From: an uncultured Rhodospirillaceae bacterium
GTDB taxonomy: Bacteria; Pseudomonadota; Alphaproteobacteria; Rhodospirillales; UBA2165
Reading direction: 5' to 3'
DNA: 64,000 nt
NCBI GenBank assembly: GCA_913020445.1
Contig: CAJWAR010000018.1
Location: forward strand, 1-64,000
Part shown: one piece after another, positions 35,868 through 40,032 of the stretch
Layout of the letters: each line of letters begins with the position of its first letter
How positions within the stretch are numbered: the first letter of the stretch is position 1
Position numbers and translations under genes: made by a program
The notes under the pieces: generated by a model
The model's input: only the letters and a program-made list of their open reading frames with translations
Told to the model about the DNA's origin: nothing
The model's database searches: none

Positions 35868-37205
35868 TTAATCTTCGTCCTCTCCGCCAATAACATTTAC
35901 TTCATCAGCAAACGGATTTACATCCTCGTGAGGATAATCTGCCGGATTAAACCAGCGGAAAAAATATGGCACCGCCCGTTGCCGCGCATCATCAGATGTT
36001 CCCTGTCCGGCCAAAAACGACTTGGCGATAGATGGCTTGAATAGTTCTTTGTAAGTGTGGAAGCACCATAACACCAACAGCTCGCCTAAATGGGGCGGCA
36101 GATTTGGCACCATTTTATAAATCCAGTCCCGGGTGGCACCCTCGCGTCCTTCGCGATCCATCTCTTCGTCTTCGACACCCATTTCCTGCTCAAGCAGTTG
36201 ACGGACGGCGTCTTTGTTTTCGTCAATTATTTCCTGGAAATAATCCATCAGCACGGCAAAGATCGCAATATCCTCAACTTTTGGCGCATCATATTCACCA
36301 GCTTTTACGCCCTCCTGGAGAACGGCCCAAAAACCGTCCGCCTTTTCATTTGAACCGGCAACGGTCTTGGCCGTTTTGGTGGCAGTTTTTTCTTTTTTCT
36401 TCTTTAGCCCGCCAAGTAAGCCACCTTTTTTCTTTTCAGGTTTAGCTTTTTTTCCCTCTTTACCCGGCTCACTGTCACGCAATGTTGAAGCGAAATCATC
36501 CATGATGCTGTTCCAAATCAAGCGAACAACATTTTCCTCCACCGGTTTGCTAAACTCGCCGAAAAATTGAGCCTGGTGAAACTTTTTCTGGGCTACGCTA
36601 TCAGACATATTGCGAATCCGCCGGTTGGCCATCATGCCCGGCAACACAAACTCGCGAACAGCTTTGACAAATCTATCGGCAAAGGCCGGCTTTAAAATAA
36701 AGGCCGGCGATGGATCATTTTGACCCACATGAAATTCCTGCAGCCGGCTATAGATGTAATCACAAAAATAATCGGCGAATGCTTCCTCAAAAACATCATG
36801 ACGCACTTCCAAACTAAGATCGGCAGGTTCCGGTTCAGCTTCCGGTCTTTTACCCGACGTCAAAACTGCCAGCAGTTCCCTCGCCCGATTGGCAATATGG
36901 TCACGAAAATCCTTATCATCGGTTTCGGCGCAGGCTTCCAAAAACTGCATGGTTGTGGCGGCGGTTTTGGCCAGATCAGCTGACGGCGCTTTCGGATCTT
37001 CTTCCGCCAGCAAGGCAACGATGATGGCTTCAATCGACCGGTCAATAGTTGAGATTAACGTGTCGCGATCTGCATCAGGACCAATTGAGGCAATATTTAC
37101 CAGAACATTCTGGAGATCAATCTCTTTACCCATTTCCGGGTCTGCAGTTGTATCCGAATCCACGCTTTGATCGCCCTGTAGAAGCTTTAGTATATTGGAT
37201 GGCAA
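35868..37205 (-). CDS. Hypothetical protein with internal Lys-rich linker
   Basis: 445 aa intact ORF; KKAKPEKKKGGLLGGLKKKKEKTATKTAKTV central segment; no family recognised. Confidence 0.65.
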   Translation of the reverse strand: MPSNILKLLQGDQSVDSDTTADPEMGKEIDLQNVLVNIASIGPDADRDTLISTIDRSIEAIIVALLAEEDPKAPSADLAKTAATTMQFLEACAETDDKDFRDHIANRARELLAVLTSGKRPEAEPEPADLSLEVRHDVFEEAFADYFCDYIYSRLQEFHVGQNDPSPAFILKPAFADRFVKAVREFVLPGMMANRRIRNMSDSVAQKKFHQAQFFGEFSKPVEENVVRLIWNSIMDDFASTLRDSEPGKEGKKAKPEKKKGGLLGGLKKKKEKTATKTAKTVAGSNEKADGFWAVLQEGVKAGEYDAPKVEDIAIFAVLMDYFQEIIDENKDAVRQLLEQEMGVEDEEMDREGREGATRDWIYKMVPNLPPHLGELLVLWCFHTYKELFKPSIAKSFLAGQGTSDDARQRAVPYFFRWFNPADYPHEDVNPFADEVNVIGGEDED

Positions 37206-37243: not shown

Positions 37244-37274
37244 TAAAAAAAAGAGCCGGAATTAATCCGGCTCT
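37244..37274 (-). terminator. Intrinsic terminator downstream of the selenoprotein candidate
   Basis: Minus strand AGAGCCGGA-TTAAT-TCCGGCTCT followed by a T tract. Confidence 0.85.
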
Positions 37275-37301: not shown

Positions 37302-37946
37302 TTAAAGCGCCTTTACGTCATCAACAGTCTTTTGCGGCTCGGGACGAACCGTATGATTTGGATCGGTATCAGTCGCCCGAACAATGCCATCCGGCGTCAC
37401 GACCAGGCGTGTCGGCATCGGCAGCGTCCAGCTGTCTTCGCCGTTCGAGGCAGGTAAACTAATGCCAAAACCGTCATAGATATCTTTGATTTCCGGCGCA
37501 ACTGTGAAAACCAAACCCAGTTGAGCGGTGTAGGCATTGCCTTCATCACGCAACAGATCAAAGTTGAGTTTGTGCTTATCGACCAGTTCTTTATTTTTAT
37601 CCTGAATTTGCGGCGAGATCGCCACCATGGTCGTGTTCAATTCAGCTAAATCGTCAACAATGTCACGCAAAGCATACAGCTCTGCATTACAATAAGGTCA
37701 CCAATGGCCACGATAAATGGTGACAACCAGGTTTCCTTTGGCCAGCAGGTCAGCCGAACTGACTATTGTGCCGTCAGAGTTTGGCAAACTAAAAGATGGC
37801 AAGGTATCGCCAACTTTAATCACGCCGTCCATAATGCCTGAATCCCGAATGGCTTGCGTTGCCGCACCCATTTTCATCCGAATTTCTTCGGGTATACGTT
37901 CGGCACTGGCTTCACGGAGCTTGGCGAGGCTTTCTTCTAAGCTCAT
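37302..37946 (-). CDS. Peroxiredoxin-like/AhpC-TSA-fold selenoprotein candidate (UGA = Sec83, UPYC motif); 214 aa if read through
   Basis: ORFs 37698..37946 and 37302..37670 are in the same frame, separated by one TGA: ...NLVVTIYRGHW-[TGA]-PYCNAELYALRDIVDDLAEL...; family members have W-C-P-x-C here; SECIS-like hairpin follows. Confidence 0.8.
37665..37687 (-). promoter_or_regulatory. Putative bacterial SECIS element
   Basis: AUGCAGAGC-UGUAU-GCUUUGCGU: 9-bp stem (two G-U wobbles), 5-nt loop with G at position 2, loop starting 19 nt after the UGA. Confidence 0.65.
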
Positions 37947-38182: not shown

Positions 38183-39343
38183 GTGCCGACAGATACGCCG
38201 CTAAAAAACGAACCGCCCCAGGTAGATGCCTTTCAACCACCGGATCGATTGTTGATGGGTGCCGGCCCGTCACCTGTCCATGAGGATGTTCTAAAGGCGA
38301 TGGGGCAGACCACGATTGGCCATCTAGATCCGACGATGGTCGGCATGATGGACGAGTTGAAAGACATGCTGCGCTATGTGTTCCAAACGCAAAATGCCAT
38401 GACTTTTCCAGTATCCGGACCGGGCTCCCTTGGCATGGAAGCCTGCGTCAATAATATTATCGAGCCGGGTGATAAAGTTATCGTCGCAATTAATGGCGTC
38501 TTTGGCACCCGTATGGCGGAAGTTGCCCAGCGCGCTGGCGCGGACGTTATCATCACCGAGGATGAGTGGGGCACAGCGGTTGATCCGGGTAAAGTCGAAG
38601 CAGCGCTCAAAGCCAACCCAGGCGTCAAAGCTGTCGGTTTTGTCCATGCTGAAACCTCGACGGGTGCCCTTTCAGATGCAACGGCACTTTGCCGCCTTGC
38701 CAAAGATCATGGTGCTCTGAGCATTGTCGATACCGTAACGTCTTTGGGTGGCGTGCCAGTCAATATAGATGTCTGGGGCGCCGATGCGGTTTATTCCGGC
38801 ACCCAGAAATGTCTCTCCTGCCCGCCCGGTCTGTCGCCGGTTACTTTCAGCGACCGCGCGGTGCAAGTGACCCTTGATCGCGAAACCCCGGTACAAAGCT
38901 GGCTCTTGGATTTATCACTGGTTGCCATCTATTGGCACGGTGATGAAAAAACCGGTGCACGGACGTATCACCACACCGCACCGGTAAATGCCCTTATGGG
39001 TCTCCATGAGGCACTGCGCCGCATCGTTCAGGAAGGCCTCGAAAATGTCTGGGCACGCCACCGGGAAACGTCAGCTATCATTGTCGCCGGAATGGAAGAG
39101 ATGGGCTTTTCGATGCTGGTCGATGCCGATGTCCGCCTGCCGGAATTGCTGACAATCAAGTTACCGGATGGCATTGACGATGGTGCCGTGCGCGGCAAAT
39201 TGATCAATGATTACGGCATTGAAATCAGCGCCGGACTTGGTCCGTTCGCCGGCAAGTTGTGGCGGATCGGTGTTATGGGTGAAGGGGCGCGGCCGGAAAA
39301 CGCCGAACGCGTCTTGAGCGCCATCAAGGAATGTATTGGTTAA
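38183..39343 (+). CDS. Class V aminotransferase (alanine/serine--glyoxylate aminotransferase-like)
   Basis: 386 aa, GTG start; LLMGAGPSPVHEDVLKAMGQTTIGHLDP, DAVYSGTQKCLSCPPGLSPVTFS. Confidence 0.9.
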   Translation: MPTDTPLKNEPPQVDAFQPPDRLLMGAGPSPVHEDVLKAMGQTTIGHLDPTMVGMMDELKDMLRYVFQTQNAMTFPVSGPGSLGMEACVNNIIEPGDKVIVAINGVFGTRMAEVAQRAGADVIITEDEWGTAVDPGKVEAALKANPGVKAVGFVHAETSTGALSDATALCRLAKDHGALSIVDTVTSLGGVPVNIDVWGADAVYSGTQKCLSCPPGLSPVTFSDRAVQVTLDRETPVQSWLLDLSLVAIYWHGDEKTGARTYHHTAPVNALMGLHEALRRIVQEGLENVWARHRETSAIIVAGMEEMGFSMLVDADVRLPELLTIKLPDGIDDGAVRGKLINDYGIEISAGLGPFAGKLWRIGVMGEGARPENAERVLSAIKECIG

Positions 39344-39372: not shown

Positions 39373-40032
39373 TTATCCAGCGGCGATCCGGTTTTTGGCG
39401 AGGCGCCACTTAGCCAGCTCAATTCGGTCCTGACCAAAGAATGGCTCGCCATCGACCACAATTGTTGGCGACCCCCAATGGCCTATATCGTGACGGGTCG
39501 CATGGTTTTGTTCGATAATGTTGATATAGAGATCTGGATCATCCCCTATCGCTTGATCCATCTTATTAAGGTCGAGACCGGCACGGTCGACCGCTTCCGC
39601 TAAATAATCTCCGTCAGTCCATTTTTCGACAACTCCACTCCAAATCAAAGTTGCGACCTCAAGCGTAAATTCCAGTGAACGCGCCTTTCTTCCAGCCTCA
39701 ACGCCGAGACGCGTGAGGCGATGAATATAAGGTTGCTCGGTGGGAATATGCACAGGGTCAAATTCCATCACGATCGGATCAGGGTTTGGCCACTTAAAGG
39801 GGATATTATGAAAATCTGCATTGCGTTCCACGTCATTAAATACATAGGGCACCATCAGTGGATTGGCGTCCAAAAAATATTTTGGATTTAGAACAGCAAG
39901 CGGCAATACCGGACGAATTTCAAGATCGATGCCATCGTTTTGAGCCCAATCGAATAAACGTTGGATGGCCAAATAGCTATAGGGACTACGATAAGAGAAA
40001 TAAACATCAACATGTGGAGGCGTGTTATTCAT
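39373..40032 (-). CDS. 2-hydroxychromene-2-carboxylate isomerase / DsbA-family protein
   Basis: 219 aa; VDVYFSYRSPYSYLAIQRL and GHWGSPTIVVDGEPFFGQDRIELAKWRL. Confidence 0.85.
   Translation of the reverse strand: MNNTPPHVDVYFSYRSPYSYLAIQRLFDWAQNDGIDLEIRPVLPLAVLNPKYFLDANPLMVPYVFNDVERNADFHNIPFKWPNPDPIVMEFDPVHIPTEQPYIHRLTRLGVEAGRKARSLEFTLEVATLIWSGVVEKWTDGDYLAEAVDRAGLDLNKMDQAIGDDPDLYINIIEQNHATRHDIGHWGSPTIVVDGEPFFGQDRIELAKWRLAKNRIAAG

Follow-up and report, generated by a model that had tools for sequence, protein, structure and literature searches.

A UGA-containing peroxiredoxin-like gene from an uncultured Rhodospirillaceae bacterium is predicted to encode a UxxC selenoprotein

Introduction

Peroxiredoxin (Prx)-like proteins with selenocysteine (Sec) as the first residue of a UxxC motif were reported in the Sargasso Sea survey of 2005 (22 sequences, named 'Prx-like protein'; PMC1088965) and in the GOS survey of 2008 (225 sequences, named 'Prx-like 1' and assigned to pfam00578; PMC2398784), and they are listed in a 2026 review (PMC13188914). 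The peroxiredoxin motif is TxxC, in which the N-terminal Cys of thioredoxin has been lost, and an Arg occupies the cis-Pro position (PMC2757866). Prx-like proteins that carry CxxC or UxxC without the remainder of the Prx triad have also been described (PMC3514251). Default gene calling cuts selenoproteins at the Sec codon.

We analyzed a 64,000-nt stretch of DNA from an uncultured Rhodospirillaceae bacterium (contig CAJWAR010000018.1, positions 1 to 64,000; hereafter the window). An earlier note on this DNA had proposed a Sec-containing Prx-like protein and had treated Sec-containing proteins of the Prx/thioredoxin fold as a known class, in agreement with the two surveys. Our comparisons suggest, with a probability of about 95%, that the gene encodes a selenoprotein in which UGA is read as Sec83, where the insertion itself is what we infer from sequence evidence.

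Results

Gene, reading frame, and neighborhood

The gene and its signals on the minus strand are as follows.

37302..37946, minus strand: predicted Prx-like selenoprotein gene (AhpC/TSA fold), 214 amino acids, ATG start and TAA stop, from translation, Pfam PF00578, and AlphaFold2
37698..37700, minus strand: in-frame UGA, predicted Sec83, first residue of UPYC (UxxC); UGA is kept in orthologues and aligned with Cys in homologues
37689..37691, minus strand: codon of Cys86, putative partner (resolving) residue of UxxC, from sequence, translation, and alignments
about 37245..37274, minus strand: intrinsic terminator-like hairpin after the stop codon, with a 9-bp stem AGAGCCGGA/TCCGGCTCT and then a T run

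A single frame from 37946 to 37302 is open for 214 codons except for one TGA (37700-37698, codon 83), and the read-through product around this codon is ...IYRGHW[U]PYCNAELYAL.... Gene calling with table 11 splits the frame into ORFs of 82 and 122 amino acids. The earlier note had described this one interrupted frame, its splitting by ORF callers, and the gene's own terminator, and all three were found. The PF00578 AhpC-TSA match spans the UGA (residues 45-191, E = 4e-24, 85.3 bits against a gathering score of 26), and Pfam Redoxin also matches the read-through product. Within the 64-kb window, 23 read-through TGAs have 60 or more open codons to either side; the open frame alone is therefore little proof, and the evidence comes from comparison with relatives. 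No second convincing UxxC case was found in the window scan of read-through TGAs.

The gene on the other side of the start codon is listed below, as a lead only.

38183..39343, plus strand: divergent neighbor, class-V aminotransferase; a congener (L063) has the same neighbor next to its orthologue

A DSBA-like thioredoxin-fold gene (window 39376-40032, minus strand) lies approximately 1.4 kb from the selenoprotein gene, and a 445-amino-acid ORF without a Pfam match (window 35871-37205, minus strand) adjoins it.

Conservation of the UGA and selection on both halves

All 10 family genomes with a match contained one TGA. The full-length form was found in 8 of these, the source included, at no less than 57% identity, so that seven other family genomes have an orthologue. 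In the class, the TGA form was present in 16 genomes besides the source, and lower-identity homologues have Cys at the U83 column, which is where the earlier note had expected a Cys or Sec. Outside the class, 21 genomes of a 399-genome phylum sample matched (E <= 1e-36), and none of them had the TGA form. The named UGA relatives are metagenome-assembled genomes filed as Rhodospirillaceae, Rhodospirillales, or Proteobacteria, and one further record, titled Klebsiella pneumoniae, looks mislabelled. Homologues in plasmid records were all below 60% identity, with no annotated Sec orthologue among them. Several Cys homologues are named 'peroxiredoxin-like family protein' by NCBI.

Compared with three congeners, dN was 0.06-0.11 for the part before the UGA and 0.07-0.12 for the part after it, at a dS of 0.5-1.2, giving a dN/dS of about 0.1 on each side. 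The similar dN values indicate that the two halves of the gene are equally constrained by purifying selection. An alternative is that the gene is a recent pseudogene or the TGA a sequencing or assembly error: a lone TGA has the look of a fresh nonsense mutation, and a stray TAG does occur in some homologues (e.g., L050, at the Tyr79 equivalent). However, more than 20 genomes that were assembled separately have TGA at this codon, the downstream half evolves at the low dN/dS given above, the SECIS element is conserved, and selB co-occurs (see below). The conserved UGA already refutes mutation or error as the explanation, to which we assign a negligible probability. The earlier note had likewise judged a chance nonsense mutation improbable, and the position of the UGA inside a single Pfam domain and its recurrence in independently assembled genomes bear this out; where decay in relatives was looked for, a conserved UGA was found instead.

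TAG in three homologues (L050, G056/L084, and L098) prompted us to consider UAG as a Sec codon, which was rejected: L050 and G056/L084 carry the TAG at another place in the gene, and the Sec column of L098 is Cys. Two further observations concern other forms of the gene. A shorter Prx-like form of 160 amino acids, present in the other two of the 10 family genomes (L030 in G009 and L031 in G008), has the same FYRGHWUPYC motif and its own hairpin, which in L030 is GUCGGC-AGUUA-GCCGAC; both genomes are incomplete, and no selB was detected in them. A tandem duplicate of the Sec gene (L032/L086, G321:C11) has UGA in both copies and an interior mismatch in the hairpin of one copy.

A SECIS hairpin within the coding region

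The following hairpin is situated just downstream of the UGA.

37665..37687, minus strand: bacterial SECIS hairpin, 9-bp stem AUGCAGAGC/GCUUUGCGU with loop UGUAU (37678-37674), from the fold and the model limits

Because Rfam gave sub-threshold noise only over the locus, the SECIS was judged by the published bSECIS model, which specifies a loop of 3-9 nt that has G among its first two positions, a stem of 4-16 bp, a distance of 16-37 nt from the UGA, and an MFE <= -7.5 kcal/mol (PMC13188914). The 23-nt element AUGCAGAGC-UGUAU-GCUUUGCGU, whose 5-nt loop has G at position 2 and starts 19 nt after the UGA, lies within all of these limits at -11.6 kcal/mol (local fold, -14.8). Shuffling of synonymous codons gave a mean z of -2.18 in Sec sequences (n = 27) versus -0.31 in Cys sequences (n = 13). 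A single hairpin that satisfies the model at <= -7.5 kcal/mol was found in 21/31 Sec sequences, compared with 1/51 Cys sequences and 4% of shuffles; the other 10/31 Sec sequences have an uninterrupted hairpin that falls short of -7.5 kcal/mol, but their local fold passes nonetheless.

Sec members show almost no variation in the codons GAG-CTG-TAT-GCT-TTG, with Ala encoded by GCT in 25/26, whereas Cys homologues use synonymous codons freely over the same stretch. Among the three congeners, dS over codons 84-96, which contain the hairpin, was 0.13, against 0.53-1.2 elsewhere. Helix pairing reached 89%, compared with 31-50% for slid partners, and covariation was modest, with both-sided changes in 2 pairs and 4 cells only. 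In this clade, codon choice within a coding region is held fixed by an RNA hairpin.

Selenocysteine machinery and co-occurrence with selB

The source genome (4.2 Mb, 95% complete) contains a tRNA-Sec (77 bits; read by ARAGORN as tRNA-SeC(UCA)), selA and selB adjacent and head to tail on one contig (G000:C22; SelB, 455 bits), and SelD (416 bits), whose gene has a UGA of its own in the motif GGGUGCK (L021, G000:C21). The tRNA-Sec gene shares the contig of selA-selB but lies approximately 20 kb away from them rather than adjoining them. A search for selA, selB, selC, and selD, as suggested earlier, therefore finds the complete bacterial Sec set, and refutation by a missing selB or tRNA-Sec fails.

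With this machinery, SelB carrying Sec-tRNA(Sec) would bind the hairpin just past the UGA, so that Sec goes in at position 83 and termination does not occur. Low-level near-cognate read-through, by which the UGA would be read as an ordinary residue (Trp or Cys), is compatible with the sequence evidence, and the UGA could also act as a stop that leaves an 82-amino-acid product. The complete Sec machinery and a hairpin that fits the bSECIS model argue against both, as does purifying selection on the downstream half, where Cys86 and the remainder of the fold are encoded; we consider either outcome very improbable.

selB was detected above the cut-off in 22/25 genomes with the UGA form but in only 2/20 genomes with the Cys form (Fisher p = 1.2e-7), and the 3/25 UGA-form genomes without detected selB are 66-88% complete. 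The switch between Cys and Sec in this clade is clean and goes with the presence of selB. selB was also present in 4/9 tested relatives without the gene, which indicates that Sec users can do without the gene.

A quick tree with several open forks was built after removal of the motif and hairpin columns. It places 28 Sec rows in a single group (SH-aLRT 93) adjacent to Cys rows, and accounting for the Sec/Cys label takes two changes. The second of these is a paralogue from the Cys clade (L081, G218:C1:9800-12400), whose UGA occupies the same codon (YRGGWUPYCNLELYALQ) and is accompanied by a short SECIS-like hairpin; it apparently reflects an independent Cys-to-Sec switch. Given the open forks, two Sec origins are likely but short of proven. 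We tentatively suggest, as a possibility that we hold with less than even confidence, a Sec-fixed clade confined to one proteobacterial class, lying within the 'peroxiredoxin-like family protein' group, unrecognised as selenoproteins by current annotation models, and derived once from Cys ancestors with one shared SECIS, L081 having been converted independently with nearly the same hairpin, AGAGCUGUAUGCUCU. If this is true, AGAGCUGUAUGCUCU would represent convergence on the same dual-coding RNA.

Other UGA-containing genes were observed in related genomes. In one (L082, G114:C73:130000-140000), a UGA-containing Prx-like gene lies on each side of a selD-selA-selB cluster: one is an orthologue of the window gene, the other a different gene with a hydrophobic N-terminal part (...LLKFYRGHW[UGA]PYCIAELRRWQDM...). 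In another (L049, from about 2303, plus strand), a frame with VPVUPACTR stands beside the Sec-Prx gene; we take it to resemble the proline/glycine reductase B-type selenoproteins.

Active site and fold

In alignments with solved structures, residue 83 is aligned with the first Cys of the ResA CxxC motif and with the Ser/Thr of the Prx TxxC motif, and Cys86 is aligned with the peroxidatic Cys of Prx. The earlier note had placed the UGA at the peroxidatic Cys position; these alignments, together with the motif rule (PMC2757866), show this to be wrong, since Cys86 occupies that position and U83 that of the Thr/Ser. Its wording of a UxxC protein with a Prx/thioredoxin fold agrees with the U83-Cys86 motif and the fold. 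The Thr/Ser three residues before the peroxidatic Cys is absent, the position being Sec or Cys in all members. Pro178 lies opposite an Arg in 2ywn (Prx) and a Pro in ResA, in C-terminal alignment pieces that score low.

The AlphaFold2 model (mean pLDDT 94.8, pTM 0.91) has an N-terminal helical extension, and its nearest folds are the BCP/AhpE peroxiredoxins (BcpB, Bcp4, and AhpE), with ResA lower in the list. The predicted fold thus points to Prx, the active-site residues to thioredoxin. The protein sequence has no obvious signal peptide.

Discussion

The likeliest role of the predicted Sec83 protein is that of a cytosolic UxxC thiol oxidoreductase, and we hold this activity, rather than peroxidase activity, to be the somewhat more probable main function. 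Sec83 would be the thioredoxin-type nucleophile of the U-P-Y-C site, and Cys86 would resolve the selenenyl-sulfide. Thioredoxin or glutathione would probably supply the electrons with which the enzyme reduces disulfides or peroxide-type substrates; substrate and donor are the least certain part of this proposal. A selenoprotein that is mainly a peroxidase, with true peroxiredoxin function, is conceivable, though we favor it less: the Pfam AhpC-TSA and Redoxin matches, a weak match to an NCBIfam thiol peroxidase model, and best folds among the peroxiredoxins rather than ResA all point that way. However, the thiol peroxidase model gives a score of 59, below its cut-off of 140, Sec/Cys replaces the Thr of TxxC(P), Pro178 (in a low-scoring alignment piece) stands where Prx has Arg (PMC2757866), and the CxxC/UxxC motif is as in the Prx-like proteins that lack the rest of the Prx triad (PMC3514251).

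The window protein stays below the cut-off of every NCBIfam model. Automatic annotation therefore probably truncates the gene, and database entries for the orthologous clade are likely split; the earlier suggestion that the gene is 'probably misannotated' is plausible. The model for the SelL-related redox protein (NF040769) gives a weak profile match in 18/19 members of one alignment (A3), and membership of the window protein was rejected at 22.3 bits against a cut-off of 120.

Among thiol:disulfide oxidoreductases of the ResA/thioredoxin-like type, the nucleophilic Cys aligns with U83 and the ResA Pro with Pro178 (in a weak piece), but the window protein has Sec in place of Cys, an N-terminal helical extension, nearest folds among Prx, and no signal peptide that is obvious. 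The Sec-peroxiredoxin (TxxU) belongs to the same fold family, and its Sec is the peroxidatic residue that follows the Thr, whereas the Sec of the window protein takes the Thr position, with Cys86 at the peroxidatic position. The cd02970 peroxiredoxin-like selenoprotein (UxxS; PMC13188914) is of AhpC/TSA type with Sec first in the motif, as here, but the window protein has UxxC, the likeness being drawn from the description. The Prx-like UxxC proteins of the Sargasso Sea and GOS surveys are alike in PF00578 type and in having Sec in UxxC, a likeness of family and motif. The window protein represents an alphaproteobacterial clade of this known UxxC Prx-like selenoprotein type, outside the NCBIfam cut-offs. 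The survey sequences are metagenome reads, to which the window case adds genome context, a taxonomic range of one class, and the sequence of the SECIS.
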